DNA from: an uncultured Altererythrobacter sp.
GTDB lineage: Bacteria; Pseudomonadota; Alphaproteobacteria; Sphingomonadales; Sphingomonadaceae
DNA length: 64,000 nt
Reading direction: 5' to 3'
Assembly (NCBI GenBank): GCA_913056125.1
Contig: CAJXNC010000001.1
Span: 434,001 to 498,000, forward strand
The notes below the pieces were generated by a model. The model searched no databases. It saw only the letters and a program-made list of their open reading frames with translations, and was not told where the DNA came from. The stretch's first letter is position 1, and each line of letters opens with the position of its first letter. The position numbers were made by a program, and so were the translations under genes. Shown here one piece after another: positions 1,459 to 43,500 of this stretch.

Positions 1459-1532
1459 GATTTGCCGTGGCCCATGGTGTCCAACCCGCTACACAGAACA
1501 AGGTCCTGTCGCGGGATCGAGGGGAGGATTGA

Positions 1533-2528
1533 ATGCGATTTGCCGTAACCGCCATTCTGGGCGCGATGGCGCTGGCAAGCTGTACTGCCGAGCCCGAGCC
1601 GCTGCCCGATCCCGGGCCGATAGCCGTCTATGGCAACAAGCAGACTTTCGAGATTGCACCGGTCCTGCTGGCGGCAGAACATTACTATCCGGGCGAGGCC
1701 TATGTCGGCATGGGCTCGATCGCCAATCTCGTAGGTGCGCCGCCCGTTCCCGGTTTCGGTGAGGAAGGCGATGCCGACCTCGCGACCAATGCCGAGACGC
1801 AGATCCTGCGCTATTCGGTCGAGAATCCCAACCTGCGCGTGATCATGACGGTGACAGAGGGCCTTTACCGCATTGTCGCTCGCCGTTCCGCCGGGATCGA
1901 AAGCGTGGCCGACCTCAAGGGCAAACGCGTTGCCACCATTCCGCAGACGAGCGCGGGCTATTTTACCAAGATGATGCTGGAGGATGCGGGCCTCACCTTC
2001 GAAGATATCGAGGCGGTTCCGATCGTCCCGCTCGCCGGCATGACCGAGGCGCTCGCCAATGGCGAAGTCGATGCGGTGGCGATCTGGGAGCCTGAAAGCG
2101 AGAATGCCGCGCAGGTGCTGGGCGACGATCTGGTCGTGTTCGGTGGCGAGGGCGTTTATCGCGAGCTCTTCAACCTCAATTCGACGGCAGAGAACCTTGC
2201 CGATCCGGAAACGCGCAACAAGATCGTGCAGTTCATCCGCGCGATCCTCGATGCCTCGGAAGAGGTACGCACCAGTCCCGAACGCGCGCAGGCGCTGATC
2301 GTTGAATCAGGTGAATTCGATCCGCAGGACGTGCAGGATAGCTGGGTTCACCAGGGCTGGATTGCCGCCGTGCCCGACGATCTTCTCGACGTGCTCGAAG
2401 TGCAGGAAGTCTGGCTTGCAGAACAGGCCGATCGCGAACCGCGCGGCCGCGAGGAACTGGCGACGCTGATCGATACCAGCGCCTATGAAGAAGCCGTTGC
2501 GCTTGGCCCGAGGGGTGAGCGCGAATGA
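1533..2528 (+). CDS. Orphan ABC-type substrate-binding lipoprotein (NMT1/SsuA-like)
   Basis: 331 residues, starting after a strong GGGGAGGA Shine-Dalgarno. The N-terminus is a lipoprotein signal with lipobox LASC (Cys17). The rest resembles the NMT1/THI5/SsuA family of periplasmic binding proteins: ADLATNAETQ, then the VADLKGKRVA and TSAGYF region, then AVAIWEPE. No permease or ATPase gene lies beside it, so it is an orphan binding protein. It may feed a transporter encoded elsewhere or act as a ligand sensor. A clear paralog with the same architecture and length is encoded at 55.9-56.9 kb on the other strand. Its stop overlaps the start of the next gene by 4 bp (ATGA), indicating translational coupling to the triple-SnoaL protein. 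Confidence 0.85.
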   Translation: MRFAVTAILGAMALASCTAEPEPLPDPGPIAVYGNKQTFEIAPVLLAAEHYYPGEAYVGMGSIANLVGAPPVPGFGEEGDADLATNAETQILRYSVENPNLRVIMTVTEGLYRIVARRSAGIESVADLKGKRVATIPQTSAGYFTKMMLEDAGLTFEDIEAVPIVPLAGMTEALANGEVDAVAIWEPESENAAQVLGDDLVVFGGEGVYRELFNLNSTAENLADPETRNKIVQFIRAILDASEEVRTSPERAQALIVESGEFDPQDVQDSWVHQGWIAAVPDDLLDVLEVQEVWLAEQADREPRGREELATLIDTSAYEEAVALGPRGERE

Positions 2529-4414
2529 TCCGAAGTCTCTTTGCGGCCCTTATCGTCCTGCTGCTGGCGGCCCTCCCGGCGTCAGCGCAGGACGACCCGG
2601 CCATTGCCACGGCGCAGGCCGAGGACCTGACCTCGGTCCGCCAGATCAAGCATATGCAGGCCCGCTGGGGCCATATGGCACTGGCGGGCAATTGGTCGGG
2701 CATGGCCGACATGCTGACCGACAATGCCGAGCTGGTGACGCGCGGCGGGGTCATATCGGGCCGCGGAGGCATCGAAGGCTGGCTTCGCACCACGCAGGGA
2801 CACGGCACGGATGGAATGGTGCAAGGCCGGCTCAACCTGCACCTCTGGATCAGCCCGATCATCACGCTCGCCGATGACGGACAGAGCGCTACCGGGCGCT
2901 GGCACGAACTGGCGCTGACCGGCGATATTGGCCAGTCGGCGGATTGGGCGGGCGGCACCTGGGTTGTGCAATATGCCATGCAGGGGGATGCCTGGCGCAT
3001 CGCGCAGATGCGCTATTACCACCAGTTTGCAGGCTCCTATGCCGATGGCTGGAGCCACGATGCCGAGACGCTCGAGCGGGCGCCTTATCACTACACGCCC
3101 GAAAGCGCCGGGATCGTCATTCCCGAGCGAAGGGCGGCGCAGCCCTGGTCGCAGGAAGCGATCGACCGGCGCGCCAATGTGCTGCTGGCAGAGGGCCTCG
3201 CGCTCAACACGGTCAATGCCTACGGCTTCTACCTCGACCGTGGCATGTATGACGATATCGTCGACCTGTTTTCCGAGGACGCCAAGATCGAGATTGGCGG
3301 CTTCGGCAGCTGGAACGGGGAAGAGGGCGTGCGCGCTTTCCTGACGCGTTATGGCGAGCCGGGCCTGCAATATGGCGAGCTGAACGATCACGCCCAGCTC
3401 ATGCCGATGGTCAATATTGCCGAGGACGGTTCGATGGCGCTGGTGCGCAATATCGACCTTGCGCAGATGGGCCAGCATGGCGGCGAGGGATACTGGCAGG
3501 TCATGATGCAGACCTTCCTGCTGCGCCCCGACGAAAACGGGAACTGGCGGATCACGCTGGTGCATCACAACCCGGTGATGCGCGCCACCTATGCCAATGG
3601 CTGGATGGACCCGATTGCCGCCGAGATTCCCTTCCCCGAAGGCGGTGAGCCCAATGGCGAGACGCAGCTGGGATCAATCGACTTCCGCAACGGCCCCTAT
3701 GGCGTCCCGCCGCTGGGTGAGAGCCTGTTCATGCCCGCGCGCGGCGAGCCTGCGCCGCTGGCAGCTGTGCCTAATGCGCTGGCACGCGCCGAGGCGTTCG
3801 ACGGTGCGGAGAATATCTCCAACGCCTATGGCTATTACATCGACCAGTTTTCCTGGCGCGAAACGACGGAGGTGTTTTCGCAGGAGGGCTGGAAGGAGCT
3901 CTCCTATATCGGCACCTTCGTCGGGCGCGAGCGACTGTGGTCGAGCCTGGTGCAGCGCTATGGCAATAGTGGGCCGAGCAATGCTTTCCAGGCGATCCAC
4001 CAGAAGACCCAGCCATATGTCACTGTCTATGACGACGGCACGCATGCCTTCATCCGCCAACGGCTGATGCAGTATAACAGCTCGGCCAGCGGGCCGGGTT
4101 CGTGGAATAGCGGCGTCTACGAGAACCAGATCGTCAAGGAAGACGGAGCCTGGCGCATTGCCGGCATGGACTTGGATTATACCTGGACGGCGCCCTACAC
4201 GGTCGGCTGGACCGGGGTCGATCCCGATGCCGCCTCGCGCTCGCTGATGTCGGAGGAGGCGATTGCCGAATTCGCGCCGGATTCACCGTTGCGGGGCACG
4301 ATTGCCGCCCCCTATCCGCAGGTTGCGCCGATGGGCTTCCATTTCGACAATCCGGTGAGTGGCCGCGAACCCGAAACGAAGCTAGAGTGGTCCGACGGAC
4401 GCACGCCACGCTAA
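2525..4414 (+). CDS. Exported protein with three SnoaL/NTF2-like domains
   Basis: 629 residues with a classical Sec signal peptide (hydrophobic LFAALIVLLLAALPASAQ, cleavage near residue 22). The mature part holds three consecutive SnoaL/NTF2-like cone domains, at about residues 32-175, 210-360 and 420-570. Each starts with a helix carrying an N-A-Y-G-Y/F-Y or equivalent motif and ends in an xGxWRIxxM/LxxxH-type strand. Single SnoaL domains are common small cyclases, dehydratases, hydratases or binding folds, but a periplasmic three-domain chain is unusual. It is translationally coupled to the upstream substrate-binding lipoprotein and sits inside the aromatic cluster. A role in binding or hydrating a ring-fission or cyclic substrate in the periplasm is inference. 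Two further exported SnoaL-like proteins are encoded at 14.3-16.2 kb. Confidence 0.8.
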   Translation: MIRSLFAALIVLLLAALPASAQDDPAIATAQAEDLTSVRQIKHMQARWGHMALAGNWSGMADMLTDNAELVTRGGVISGRGGIEGWLRTTQGHGTDGMVQGRLNLHLWISPIITLADDGQSATGRWHELALTGDIGQSADWAGGTWVVQYAMQGDAWRIAQMRYYHQFAGSYADGWSHDAETLERAPYHYTPESAGIVIPERRAAQPWSQEAIDRRANVLLAEGLALNTVNAYGFYLDRGMYDDIVDLFSEDAKIEIGGFGSWNGEEGVRAFLTRYGEPGLQYGELNDHAQLMPMVNIAEDGSMALVRNIDLAQMGQHGGEGYWQVMMQTFLLRPDENGNWRITLVHHNPVMRATYANGWMDPIAAEIPFPEGGEPNGETQLGSIDFRNGPYGVPPLGESLFMPARGEPAPLAAVPNALARAEAFDGAENISNAYGYYIDQFSWRETTEVFSQEGWKELSYIGTFVGRERLWSSLVQRYGNSGPSNAFQAIHQKTQPYVTVYDDGTHAFIRQRLMQYNSSASGPGSWNSGVYENQIVKEDGAWRIAGMDLDYTWTAPYTVGWTGVDPDAASRSLMSEEAIAEFAPDSPLRGTIAAPYPQVAPMGFHFDNPVSGREPETKLEWSDGRTPR

Positions 4415-37743: not shown

Positions 37744-39804
37744 ATGCCCCTTATCCGCCTGATGCTGGCGATGGTCGCCCTGCTGCTGGCCATTCCCGTG
37801 GCAGCGCAACAGGCATCGAGCCCTCCCGACATGATGGATCGCGGGACTGCGCGGCTGGTGGCGGAGAAGGCCATCGAGCCGGGGACGAGCGGAGATGTTG
37901 CGCTGGTCTTCGTGCCGATCGAGAACTGGCACGGCTACTGGTCAAATCCGGGCGATGCCGGGCAGGGCATGATGCTGCGCTGGACGCTCCCCGAAGGCTG
38001 GAGCGCGGGCGAGCCGCAATATCCGGTGCCGCAGACCTATGTCGTCGAAGGGCTGATGAACCATATCTTCGAGGGCGAGCATGCCGTTCTGGTTTCGCTC
38101 GATGTGCCGGAGGATGCTACGCCGGGGGCTTATCCGGTCAGCGTATTCGGCCAGTGGCTCACCTGTTCGGAGACGCTCTGCGTGCCGCAACAGGGCACGC
38201 TTTCGACCGTGGTGACGATTTCGGCTCTTGGGGGCGAGGGAGCAGAGGTCAATCCGCGTTTTGCCGAATGGCGTGCCGCTTTGCCGCCGCTGCTCGACCA
38301 GCAGGCCAAGTTCGAGTTCGCCGGTGATTTCCTGCGCGTGGCGATCCCGCTGCCGGCAAGCATGGATCTGGGCATGCCGCATGTCTTTGTCGCCGAGACC
38401 GGACTGGTGGATTACGCCGCGCCCCAGACCTTCTACCGCGATGGCGACGAGCTGGTGGCCGAGATCCGCCGCGACGGCAGGGGCGGAGAGGCAGAGGCGC
38501 TTTCGGGCATCATCGCGCTGGGCAGCGCGCGCGACGGTCTGCGCTTTACCGCCATGCCGGGCGAGGTCGCGACTGGTGGCCGCGTGCTGGCCGCAGCACC
38601 GGGCGACACGCCCGCGCTGTGGTCTTTGCTGCTCGCCGCGCTGGCGGGCGGGCTCATCCTCAACCTGATGCCCTGCGTCTTCCCGATCCTCAGCCTCAAG
38701 GCGCTGACTTTGGCGCGCGCGGGTGAGAGCGAGGCCGGGGCCAAGCGCGAGGCGCTTGCCTATTCTGCCGGCGTGGTGTTCGCCTGCCTGGCGCTGGGCG
38801 GGCTGATGCTGGCCTTGCGCGCTGCGGGAGAACAGGTCGGCTGGGCCTTCCAGCTGCAGGAGCCCGGCGTGGTTGTCGCGCTGCTGGTGCTCGCCGTGCT
38901 GATCACCGCCAACTTTGCCGGCCTGTTCGAACTGCCCTCGCTTTCGATTACGCGGCAGGGCGGTGGATCCTCCGCCTTTGCCACCGGACTGCTGGCCGCA
39001 TTCGTGGCGACGCCCTGCACCGGGCCTTTCATGGCGGCCGCCTTGGGCGCTGCGCTGTTACTGCCCGTGCTGCAGGCGCTGCTGCTGTTTGCGGCATTGG
39101 GTTTGGGACTGGCGCTGCCCTTCCTCCTGCTCGGTTTCGTGCCCGCGCTGCGCAGCCGCTTGCCCAGACCGGGTGCGTGGATGGACCGCTTCCGCAAGAT
39201 CATGGCGATCCCAATGGGGCTGACCGCGCTGGCCCTGATGTGGCTGGTCTCGCGCCTTGGTGGGCAGACATTCGCGTTGGTCACGCTCGCCGTAATTGCC
39301 GGATTGGTGCTGGGTGTCGCAATCGTCGGTCGTTTGCAACGCGCCGGCAAGATGGCCTGGCCCGCCTTTGGGCTGGTTGCCGCCCCCTTCCTGATTCTTG
39401 CCGCTTTCGCGCTACCGGCGACGTTCCAGCCCGGCTCCGAACGTGCTGACGAAAGCCTGCTATCGCCAGTCGATTACAGCGCAACCGCATTGGCCGAAGC
39501 GCGGGCGTCGGACCAGCCGGTGTTCCTCTGGTTCACCGCCGACTGGTGCCTGACCTGCAAGGTCAATGAGGGTGTCGCGATCGAGCGCGAAGCCACGAGG
39601 GAGGCCTTCGAGGAAGCGGGCGTTGTCGCCATGCGCGGTGACTGGACCGTGCGCGACGAGGCGATCACGCAATTCCTGACCGAGCAGGGCGCGGCCGGCG
39701 TGCCTCTCTATATGTGGTATCCGGCTGGCGGAGGCGCACCCGAGCAGCTCCCGCAGGTCCTCACGCCCGACATGCTGGTCGAGCTCGCCGAAGCTACTCG
39801 TTAG
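37744..39804 (+). CDS. DsbD/ScsB-like thiol:disulfide interchange protein
   Basis: 686 residues from ATG 37744 (ATG 37729 also possible; the track start at 37387 is inside the divergent gene). Signal peptide MLAMVALLLAIPVAAQ, then a periplasmic N-terminal domain (about 25-280) of the DsbC-like/ScsB type with NWHGYWSNPGDAG and LTCSETLCVPQ. The CcdA-like membrane domain has redox cysteines in MPCVFPILSLK (about 309) and ATPCTGPFMAA (about 423). A C-terminal thioredoxin domain has DWCLTCKVNE (about 599). This three-part plan passes electrons from cytosolic thioredoxin to periplasmic thiol proteins, for example for cytochrome c maturation. Confidence 0.93.
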   Translation: MPLIRLMLAMVALLLAIPVAAQQASSPPDMMDRGTARLVAEKAIEPGTSGDVALVFVPIENWHGYWSNPGDAGQGMMLRWTLPEGWSAGEPQYPVPQTYVVEGLMNHIFEGEHAVLVSLDVPEDATPGAYPVSVFGQWLTCSETLCVPQQGTLSTVVTISALGGEGAEVNPRFAEWRAALPPLLDQQAKFEFAGDFLRVAIPLPASMDLGMPHVFVAETGLVDYAAPQTFYRDGDELVAEIRRDGRGGEAEALSGIIALGSARDGLRFTAMPGEVATGGRVLAAAPGDTPALWSLLLAALAGGLILNLMPCVFPILSLKALTLARAGESEAGAKREALAYSAGVVFACLALGGLMLALRAAGEQVGWAFQLQEPGVVVALLVLAVLITANFAGLFELPSLSITRQGGGSSAFATGLLAAFVATPCTGPFMAAALGAALLLPVLQALLLFAALGLGLALPFLLLGFVPALRSRLPRPGAWMDRFRKIMAIPMGLTALALMWLVSRLGGQTFALVTLAVIAGLVLGVAIVGRLQRAGKMAWPAFGLVAAPFLILAAFALPATFQPGSERADESLLSPVDYSATALAEARASDQPVFLWFTADWCLTCKVNEGVAIEREATREAFEEAGVVAMRGDWTVRDEAITQFLTEQGAAGVPLYMWYPAGGGAPEQLPQVLTPDMLVELAEATR

Positions 39805-40369
39805 CTTCCGTCTCTTCCTCTTCTTCCGCTTCGGCTGCCACTACCTCGCCGCCCGCGCGGCACCAGGTCACGAACTCGCCCGGAATGCGGCTGCCCGCGA
39901 TTTCCAGCATGCCGCGCCCCGGCAATGTGGCGGTGATGTCGCGCGCGCCGGTAAACACGTCGAGCTGCGGGTCGTCCGCCGGCAGGCTGCCTTCCCAGCG
40001 CCACTCGCCCTCGCTCAGCACAGCATCGACCATGAAGCGGCTGCGCGTGCCATTGCCGAGCACGGGGAAGAGCGCGCTGAGGCCGGGCCGCGCCTCGGCG
40101 TGGCGAATGATGGAGATCTGCGGCGGCTCCGCATCGAGGCGGCAGGCGAGCGTCAGCAGCGGTGCCTCGTCGGCATTGCCGAAACTGATCGATTGGCCGC
40201 TTTCGTCGACCAGCCAGCTGGCCTCGCTCGTATCCGGAGAACTCGCCATCACGCTCGGCGGAGCAGCTTGCGGCTGATCGAGACGGACCTGCTGCACCGG
40301 CGCGGGTTCGGCCTCGCCACATGCGGCGAGGGGGATCAGGAGTGCGAATGCCAATGCGCGGCGGGGCAT
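39794..40369 (-). CDS. Hypothetical lipoprotein
   Basis: 191 residues from the ATG at 40369, where a lipoprotein signal begins (RALAFALLIPLAACGE, Cys near residue 17); the track start adds 24 unlikely residues. After a Pro/Gln-rich spacer there is a compact domain (about 50-170) with ACRLDAEPPQISIIRHAEA and ITATLPGRGMLEIAGSR. The C-terminus is a run of Glu/Ala. No family recognised. Its 3' end overlaps the convergent dsbD-like gene by 11 bp. The gene just upstream encodes a 45-residue CxxC microprotein. Confidence 0.8.
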   Translation of the reverse strand: MPRRALAFALLIPLAACGEAEPAPVQQVRLDQPQAAPPSVMASSPDTSEASWLVDESGQSISFGNADEAPLLTLACRLDAEPPQISIIRHAEARPGLSALFPVLGNGTRSRFMVDAVLSEGEWRWEGSLPADDPQLDVFTGARDITATLPGRGMLEIAGSRIPGEFVTWCRAGGEVVAAEAEEEEETEANE

Positions 40370-40373
40370 GGGG

Positions 40374-40511
40374 TCAGATCGCGTGGCGGCGGCGGTGATC
40401 GCTGAACTTCTCGCCGCCCAGAGCCTGCGTGCGCACGCCATTGACCTTCCACGGCTTGCACAGTTTGCAGCCGGAACGGGCGTTTCGGGGACGGTTGCGC
40501 TTGTGGTTCAT
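40374..40511 (-). CDS. 45-residue basic CxxC microprotein
   Basis: The protein begins MNHKRNRPRNARSGCKLCKP and ends in KFSDHRRRHAI, with two Cys in CKLCKPWK and a strongly basic composition. It resembles a small conserved protein found as a free-standing gene in many Proteobacteria (NRPRNARSGC-type), perhaps a nucleic-acid or zinc-binding mini-protein. It ends 4 bp before the lipoprotein start. The Shine-Dalgarno is poor. The ORF track shows a longer frame (40595) whose first 28 residues are probably not translated. Confidence 0.65.
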   Translation of the reverse strand: MNHKRNRPRNARSGCKLCKPWKVNGVRTQALGGEKFSDHRRRHAI

Positions 40512-40543
40512 GGGGAGCCACTTAGTCCTTGTTGGCCGAATCG

Positions 40544-40651
40544 TCACTTCTTCTTTGCGATCCACATCCCAATCTGGATGCCTCCAAGGGTGCATCCTCC
40601 GGCCCCACCAATTAGGACGATAATCAGACTAACAGTCTCAAATGGCGTCAT
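40544..40651 (-). CDS. 35-residue single-pass membrane microprotein
   Basis: Not in the ORF track (too short). The minus strand from ATG 40651 encodes MTPFETVSLIIVLIGGAGGC followed by TLGGIQIGMWIAKKK, a single glycine-rich membrane helix with a Lys-rich end. An in-frame ATG five codons upstream (40666) is possible. Base composition is lower in GC than the neighbours and no clear Shine-Dalgarno is seen. The window from 40512 to 40740 holds nothing else I recognise. Confidence 0.4.
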   Translation of the reverse strand: MTPFETVSLIIVLIGGAGGCTLGGIQIGMWIAKKK

Positions 40652-40740
40652 GGTGATCGCCCGCATCTGGCCCAAGGTGCCACTCTTGAAGCACGATCAC
40701 AGCAACTTCGCCAGCTAGCTTGAAGTGGCGCAATTCGATC

Positions 40741-41148
40741 CTAGTCATGAGGGCCTAAGCCGGTTCTAAGTGCCCATTGGCCACTTCCGATCCCACCAAC
40801 CGAACGAAACCAATCGAATCTCCCTGTAAAGGCTTCGGAATCAGAGCTGTTATATTCTAGCTCTCTTCGGACAATTGCTTTGAAGTTCACCGGGACGCTC
40901 CGCCCGTTCTGCAGTCGTATCTTCTGTACGGCATTGTAAAGCAGAGAAAGATCGGACGATCCTCCAAGGTTGAACAACGCTAACCTTACGTCGTCTCGCC
41001 AACGAACCCGGTCAGTCGATTCCGTGTCTTTGGTAGGATCAGCAATACCTAGAAGCCGTCGAAGAATCGCGTCTTCGGTTTCCTCTCCGTCCTCACGGTG
41101 AGACCAGATCTTTGCAAAGACATCGGTGCCGACTTCAATGGATCTCAT
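40741..41148 (-). CDS. Small protein with SeqA-N-terminal-like segment
   Basis: 135 residues in a pocket of distinctly lower GC than its neighbours. The first 35 residues, RSIEVGTDVFAKIWSHRED then ILRRLLGI, follow the pattern of the SeqA N-terminal oligomerisation domain, a ribbon-helix-helix-like module. The C-terminal 80 residues (RVRWRDDVRLALFNLGG, LQNGRSVPVNFKAIVRREL, FRSVGGIGSGQWALR) recall small winged domains found near restriction systems. No Shine-Dalgarno is evident. It lies just downstream of uvrB in the same direction. Function unknown; DNA binding is a reasonable guess, and foreign origin is suggested by base composition. Confidence 0.65.
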   Translation of the reverse strand: MRSIEVGTDVFAKIWSHREDGEETEDAILRRLLGIADPTKDTESTDRVRWRDDVRLALFNLGGSSDLSLLYNAVQKIRLQNGRSVPVNFKAIVRRELEYNSSDSEAFTGRFDWFRSVGGIGSGQWALRTGLGPHD

Positions 41149-41193
41149 TCTGCATGAATATCAGAATAGTTTGGAACTATCCAGAACTAAGTT

Positions 41194-43380
41194 CTATTTT
41201 CCGAACTTCCGCTGCGTCTTGCCGTATCGCAGCTTGCGCGTCCCCGGTCTGCCCTCATTGCTCCGCCCAACCACAGGCGCGCGTTTGTCCGCTTCTTCGA
41301 GCCCCAGCTCCTCGTTTTCGAGGCGGCGGATCTCGTCGCGCAGGCGACCGGCCTCCTCGAACTCGAGGTCGGCAGCGGCATCGCGCATGCGCTTTTCCAA
41401 GTCCTCGATATAGGCGCGGAGGTTGTGCCCGACGAGGTTGTTGCGATCGTCATCCCCCGTATCGACGGTGACGCCATCCTTGCTCGCCGTATGCGCGACG
41501 ATATCGGCAATGGCGCGCTTGATGGTCTGCGGGGTGATGCCGTGTTCTTCGTTATAGGCGCGCTGCTTTTCGCGGCGGCGCTCGGTCTCGGCCATGGCGC
41601 GTTCCATGCTGCCGGTAATGCGGTCGGCATAGAGGATGACCTTGCCATCGACGTTTCGTGCCGCGCGGCCGATCGTCTGGATCAGCGAGGTCTCGCTGCG
41701 CAGGAAGCCCTCCTTGTCGGCATCGAGGATGCAGACCAACCCGCATTCGGGAATGTCGAGGCCTTCGCGCAGCAGGTTGATGCCCACCAGCACGTCATAG
41801 ACGCCGAGGCGCAAGTCGCGGATCAGCTCGATACGTTCGAGCGTCTCCACGTCCGAATGCATGTAGCGTACCTTCACGCCCTGTTCGTGCATGAACTCGG
41901 TCAAATCTTCGGCCATGCGCTTGGTCAGCGTGGTGACGAGCGTGCGATAGCCCTTGGCCGCGACCGCCTTGCACTCGGCAATGCAGTCCTGCACCTGGTC
42001 CTCGACCGGGCGGATCTCGACGGGCGGGTCGATCAGGCCGGTCGGGCGGATGACCTGTTCGGCGAACACGCCGCCGGTCTGCTCCATCTCCCACGGGCCG
42101 GGCGTGGCCGAGACCGCGAAGGTCTGCGGGCGCATCGCGTCCCATTCGTTGAAGCGCAGCGGGCGGTTGTCGATGCAGGAGGGCAGGCGGAAACCGTATT
42201 CGGCGAGCGTCAGCTTGCGGCGATGGTCCCCGCGCGCCATCGCGCCGATCTGCGGCACCGTCTGGTGGCTTTCGTCGACGAAAAGCAGAGCGTTTTCGGG
42301 GAGGTATTCGAACAGGGTCGGCGGCGGTTCACCCGGCAGTCGACCGGTGAGGAAGCGCGAATAGTTCTCGATCCCGTTGCAGCTGCCGGTGGCGTGGATC
42401 ATTTCGAGGTCGAAGTTGGTCCGCTGTTCGAGGCGCTGGGCTTCGAGCAGGCGGCCTTCCTCGTGCAGTTCCTTGAGCCGCTCTTCCAGCTCGAACTTGA
42501 TGGCCTGCGTCGCCTGCTTCATCGTCGGGCCGGGCGTGACATAGTGCGAATTGGCGTAGATCCGCACCTTGTCGAGGCTGGCGCCTTTCTTGCCTGTGAG
42601 CGGGTCGAACTCGCTGATTTCCTCGATCTCGTCCCCGAAGAAGGAGATGCGCCAGGCCATGTCCTCATAGTGGCTGGGGAAGATTTCCAGATTGTCGCCG
42701 CGCACACGGAAACAGCCGCGCACGAATGCGGCATCGTTGCGCTTGTACTGCAGCGCGACGAGCTTGCGGATGATTTCCCGCTGGTCGACCGTCTCGTCCT
42801 TCTTGATGTCGAAGATCATCGCCGAATAGGTCTCGACCGAGCCGATACCGTAGAGGCAGGAGACAGAGGCCACGATCAGCACGTCGTCGCGTTCGAGCAG
42901 GGCGCGCGTGGCCGAGTGGCGCATGCGGTCGATCGCCTCGTTTACCGAGCTTTCCTTCTCGATATAGGTGTCGCTGCGCGGCACATAGGCCTCGGGCTGG
43001 TAGTAGTCGTAATAGGAGACGAAATACTCGACCGCGTTCTCGGGAAAGAAGCTCTTGAACTCGCCATAAAGCTGCGCGGCGAGGATCTTGTTGGGGGCCA
43101 GCACGAGGGCAGGGCGCTGCAATTGCTCGACCACCTTGGCCATGGTGAATGTCTTGCCCGATCCGGTAACGCCGAGCAGCACCTGCGTCTGCTCGCCCTC
43201 GCGCGCACCGGCTACCAACTCCTCGATCGCGGTGGGCTGGTCGCCGGCCGGCTCATAGTCCGAGACCAGCTTGAACGGCTTGCCACCCTGCGATTTTTCC
43301 GGTCTTGCGGGCTTGTGCGGGGTAAAGTCCCCGCTGGTATCGGGTTCTTCCAGTCCGCGTCGGATTACGAGTTCAGCCAT
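41194..43380 (-). CDS. uvrB: Excinuclease ABC subunit B
   Basis: 728 residues from ATG 43380 (the track uses a TTG seven codons earlier). It has a 30-residue N-terminal extension relative to E. coli UvrB. Walker [12 protein letters not shown] lies near residue 65, the beta-hairpin [19 protein letters not shown] follows, and the helicase motifs are FVDESHQTV and [13 protein letters not shown]. The C-terminal UVR domain that binds UvrC is [19 protein letters not shown]. It verifies DNA damage in nucleotide excision repair with UvrA and UvrC. It is divergent from the DUF3617 lipoprotein genes across about 120 bp. Confidence 0.98.
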
Positions 43381-43500
43381 GCCGGAACATATGGGGGACA
43401 ACGCAGGTCAACGCAATCGCATTGGAACCGTAACCAAGCGTTGATAGTTTGAGACCATTCTTGCGGGCAGTTTCCGGCCCGCCGACTTGGGGGATTCGTA

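Follow-up and report, generated by a model that had tools for sequence, protein, structure and literature searches.

Which kind of protein is encoded in the low-GC pocket directly downstream of uvrB in an uncultured Altererythrobacter sp., and on which DNA might it act? Here, we analysed a stretch of 64,000 nucleotides (the window) from this alphaproteobacterium and find that the protein belongs to a coherent, uncharacterised family that joins a ribbon-helix-helix (RHH) module of toxin-antitoxin (TA) regulator type to a restriction-type winged-helix (wH) domain, and that it is not SeqA. The drop in base composition pointed out in the initial annotation is real, as the GC content of the window reaches its minimum at positions 40512-41193 (0.510 compared to a window mean of 0.628); when all 682-bp stretches were compared, the lowest (GC 0.504) started at 40521. 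The sole long frame of this region, as had been described, extends over 40741-41148 on the reverse strand and encodes 135 aa, with a SeqA-N/antitoxin-like RHH (residues 1-34), a linker (about 35-48), and a wH (about 49-129). It starts 45 bases past the stop of uvrB (41194-43401, reverse strand), an upstream neighbour that is kept in seven loci, and the intergenic space between the two (41149-41193, reverse strand) holds a putative operator array.

Genomes of the same genus have a lipoprotein-like gene after uvrB, either at once or past a short gap (L038 and L035; also L032 and L037), and a relative of this gene is located at 39794-40369 of the window. Because the two genes are nearly contiguous in these genomes, the window contains about 0.8 kb of extra DNA, around which no transposon-type long flanking inverted repeats were found. 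Two micro-ORFs share this insert with the RHH-wH gene. The 35-aa frame at 40544-40651 (reverse strand; MTPFETVSLIIVLIGGAGGCTLGGIQIGMWIAKKK), which codes for a single-TM-like peptide, is conserved over its full length (57-60%) in four genomes of another genus and is, judged by this conservation, a conserved small gene. As it is directly downstream of uvrB in that other genus, the RHH-wH gene stands between the two in the window. The 36-aa frame at 40638-40748 (reverse strand), which overlaps the stop of the RHH-wH gene, matched a leucine-dehydrogenase-like protein only weakly and in part, and was dropped as a candidate conserved gene; it is probably not a gene and possibly a remnant. Adjacent to the pocket, a 45-aa CxxC microprotein is encoded at 40374-40511, and DNA similar to this segment is present elsewhere in the same genome (C9) and in congeners.

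All residues by which the SeqA N-terminal pattern had been recognised are present in the protein (MRSIEV, WSHRED, and ILRRLL). SeqA_N is the top Pfam-A match for residues 1-34, although below threshold (15.6 bits, E 0.0099; cut-off 23), and SeqA was also matched in NCBIfam (E 0.035) and, using phmmer, in the PDB SeqA-N structure 1xrx (E 1.5). Similarity to SeqA_N thus persists in a profile comparison, though under the Pfam cut-off and rivalled by DUF7557, which relatives of the protein match as well (best E 5e-5); VAPB_antitox, like DUF7557, is matched weakly by the RHH part. The RHH fold is strand-helix-helix and an obligate dimer. The AF2 model, which is of a monomer, has helices at residues 8-15 and 25-33 and no assigned strand, with residues 1-7 being of low confidence. 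Used as a Foldseek query, it matched the SeqA N-domain 1xrx with a probability of 0.84 and a TM-score of 0.71 on the target, which would be compatible with the RHH fold proposed in the initial annotation. The description of an alphaproteobacterial protein that combines a SeqA-N-like RHH module with another type of C-terminal domain stands, whereas the restriction of the SeqA N-module to gammaproteobacteria is not quite right, as two alphaproteobacterial proteins (L060 and L061) reach the SeqA_N cut-off. The former (L060:1489-2019), from the family of the window, scores above the Pfam cut-off (24.0 bits) and has an unrelated C-terminal domain; the latter (L061:1486-1920) is a fusion of a SeqA_N-like module and RAMA.

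The AF2 model of the whole protein (pLDDT 84) starts with two helices, continues through a loose linker, and ends in a wH of high confidence (pLDDT about 90-97). Three helices (residues 50-60, 67-80, and 89-99) and a beta-hairpin wing (strands 114-116 and 124-127) make up this C-terminal half, as is typical of winged helices. It resembles forkhead-type wH domains in Foldseek (FOXN1, probability 0.99), and with weak E-values throughout these model comparisons would support the fold and not prove homology. Foldseek against viral models was uninformative, and a profile search against the PDB returned chance-like matches alone, e.g., to lectin repeats. Beyond residue 43, neither Pfam nor NCBIfam had a match, and the SeqA C-terminal domain is hence absent. 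PHROGs and PADLOC yielded nothing, Pfam gave no match to HARE-HTH, the extra helix of which is missing from the wH model, and the protein has no nuclease domain of the kind fused to the wH of type IV readers.

HNH endonucleases, enzymes presumed to cleave foreign DNA that bears chemical marks, start with the same wH (about 45-59% identity); they are encoded in alphaproteobacteria (L015-L019 and L021-L025) and also on Firmicutes plasmids. On a Pseudoalteromonas megaplasmid, the wH is found at the C-terminus of a PIN_8 protein encoded directly after dndE (L066:2131-3258). In one further locus (L074:1498-3157), a wH protein gene is followed by a gene read by eye as a Vsr-like endonuclease. The RHH half, in turn, is joined to a RAMA-like domain alone (L009, L011, L028, and others) or to a RAMA-like domain plus wH (L020, L026, and L027). 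The RAMA match is statistically good in L061 only (E 3.7e-6, under the curated cut-off) and elsewhere rests on resemblance; a model of the three-domain protein, with a pLDDT of 65, was of poor quality and left the RAMA fold unconfirmed. Four RHH-RAMA-like genes (L053, L054, L055, and L071) have neighbours of integrase-like, excisionase-like, or serine-recombinase-like type, which suggests integrative elements.

Matches to the RHH-wH protein were obtained in 11 of 401 family genomes, none of them from another member of its own genus, and its distribution is thus sporadic. The proposal that the gene is mobile or restriction-associated stood in part: the C-terminal domain common to restriction-type HNH enzymes and the sporadic occurrence agree with it, but plasmids had no similar DNA and phage records no match. 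Two contigs from viral collections do carry a homologue. One RHH-wH gene (L042:6001-6405) is on the opposite strand within a GTA/HK97-like tail cluster, assigned by eye, of a viral-collection contig. Another (L003, reverse complement, 1495-3375) is followed by genes for a 328-aa protein and an FRG-domain protein (PF08867, 1.2e-8), with a terminase-like gene adjoining.

Seven RHH-wH genes, including that of the window, immediately follow uvrB in the same orientation, and in all six other loci the next gene is a toxin gene that starts with a 4-base ATGA/GTGA overlap or at zero gap; two of these loci (L004 and L005) are near-identical, which leaves five independent cases. HigB (PF05015; E 5e-16 in L013) and HigA-like genes follow in L004, L005, L013, and L014, HicA (PF07927) and HicB in L045, and HicA in L002. 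The layout of a three-component TA operon is accordingly present in the first five loci and in part in L002, but not in the window, and the lack of a toxin gene in the window itself is a counterpoint to a role in TA regulation. A search of the window insert for remnants of HigB, HigA, HicA, or HicB found nothing convincing; the only low E-value (0.001 in a tiny database) came from a 37-residue HicB match on the other strand. The RHH-wH genes of all carriers have a lower GC content (0.50-0.57) than the respective uvrB (0.63-0.66), and L013 and L045 share 92% identity in uvrB but 51% in RHH-wH. These sequence patterns would fit a gene that arrived, or was exchanged, more than once at a single site, and vertical descent with loss might account for them too. 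HigB also occurs behind uvrB without an RHH-wH gene (L080), and part of the linkage may therefore reflect a shared hotspot. Carried further, the gene could be a passenger at an insertion hotspot downstream of uvrB, i.e., a fast-evolving, decaying, or selfish gene that has no functional tie to TA genes. We regard this as unlikely: the sporadic distribution, the empty sites of the same genus in which the lipoprotein gene directly succeeds uvrB, the solitary HigB of L080, and the copies located elsewhere (in the tail gene cluster of L042, and in L003 and L046) are consistent with a passenger, but the frames are intact everywhere, starts and stops overlap with two unrelated toxin families, and the operators are conserved.

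The putative operator array of the window reads AGTTC-N5-AGTTC-N5-TATTC on the reverse strand, with boxes at 41184-41188, 41174-41178, and 41164-41168. Upstream of nine RHH-wH-type genes, we counted 20 AGWTC boxes as compared to 2.9 expected (four matches in uvrB codons removed) and 12 pairs of GWTC at a distance of exactly 10 bp as compared to 0.07 expected (0 of 2000 shuffles), statistics that are descriptive because the motif had been noticed in these loci before counting. The three loci away from uvrB alone contributed five such pairs (0.04 expected). No enrichment of these boxes was seen upstream of wH-HNH genes or of other RHH classes, which have CCTC or CTAT motifs instead. With up to one mismatch allowed, the 3.0 Mb genome of the window has a single copy of the array, and exact three-box matches in G281 are confined to the RHH-wH gene. 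The GATC or GTTC boxes at helical phase and the rank of SeqA_N as top Pfam match could be taken to mean that the protein is a genuine member of the SeqA family, with a role in sequestering origins or in reading hemimethylated sites. This is highly improbable for a protein that scores under the Pfam cut-off, lacks the SeqA C-terminal domain, has its array at its own gene only, and was not found in the other searched members of the genus.

RHH domains normally bind DNA themselves, and the RHH half could therefore be the reader of the boxes. Type II antitoxin RHH domains are established binders of short phased repeats, and both the weak VAPB_antitox and DUF7557 matches and the TA linkage of RHH-wH genes are compatible with a classical autorepressor, in which box reading would fall to the RHH, as it does in antitoxins and in the omega repressor, while the wH reads modified invading DNA or holds a partner protein. 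We consider this possible but doubtful, as nearly the same RHH strand residues go with different boxes (the window and L027 have MRSIEV, L013 and L046 have MRTIEI) and the box type tracks the wH. The RHH of L020 is closest to that of L027 (76%), yet the wH of L020 is class-A-like and its boxes are GATC, while L026, L027, and L046 have another wH type and CCTC boxes in common. From these few discordant cases (L020 and L046), the boxes would seem to vary with the type of wH and not with the RHH, in a small sample in which the class-A loci are related and the box classes were set on the same few loci used to test them.

We infer that box recognition lies with the wH and not with the RHH, and propose, with a probability of roughly one half, that the protein is a small DNA-binding autoregulator. 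Briefly, the N-terminal RHH half would pair subunits, as SeqA-N does, and the C-terminal wH would bind AG[A/T]TC boxes that recur with each helical turn in the promoter region of its own gene, thereby repressing that promoter. As the first cistron of a HigBA or HicAB operon behind uvrB, the protein of the relatives would be the third component in TA control; in the window, from which the TA pair is absent, it would be an orphan autoregulator.

It is tempting to speculate that DNA modification alters this binding. In DpnI and HhiV4I, G6mATC is recognised by the wH domain (PMC11037411), and reader nucleases that bear a wHTH are associated with Dnd modification loci (PMC10853773); together, this makes modification sensing by the window protein worth testing, and nothing more. 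The protein would then be an independent SeqA-like switch in which an RHH multimeriser is coupled to a restriction-type wH that reads GATC/GTTC boxes at every turn of the helix. Its binding would change when GATC carries 6mA or when a phosphorothioate is present in GAAC/GTTC or in GATC, and incoming marked foreign DNA would pull the repressor away and so release the TA operon, a scenario to which we give little credence.

With autoregulation as the preferred reading, a domain by which nuclease defence enzymes read DNA would have been reused, together with a SeqA-N-like pairing module, as a probable regulator that heads TA operons. The phased boxes provide a testable target for an uncharacterised wH family and thus a clue to the recognition sites of the matching HNH enzymes.

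Compared with known systems, the protein resembles SeqA (PF17206 N-domain) in the pattern and size (about 35 residues) of its RHH-type N-module, in the linker that connects this module to a DNA-binding domain at the C-terminus, in having short GATC-like sites spaced by the helical repeat, and in the division of labour, but differs in that its C-terminal domain is a wH, its score is below threshold, its putative operator is at its own gene, and its presence is not genus-universal. Among type IV restriction enzymes with a wH (DpnI wH, HhiV4I; PMC11037411), which recognise G6mATC, the likeness lies in the nearest relatives of the window wH being joined to HNH and in some putative operators containing GATC; unlike these enzymes the window protein has no nuclease, and methyl reading, known there, is speculative here. 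One halobacterial and one Natrinema HNH protein did not match the profile of this wH. HARE-HTH/RAMA proteins are approached by the RHH-RAMA-like and RHH-RAMA-like-wH proteins, which have the same RHH half, and not by the window protein, given its lack of a HARE-HTH match and of the extra helix. Three-component type II TA operons are known as omega-epsilon-zeta and paaR-paaA-parE. While the regulator here is composed of RHH and wH, and the toxin varies (HigB or HicA) and is absent in the window, the relatives have in common with these operons that a separate DNA-binding regulator gene heads the toxin and antitoxin genes.
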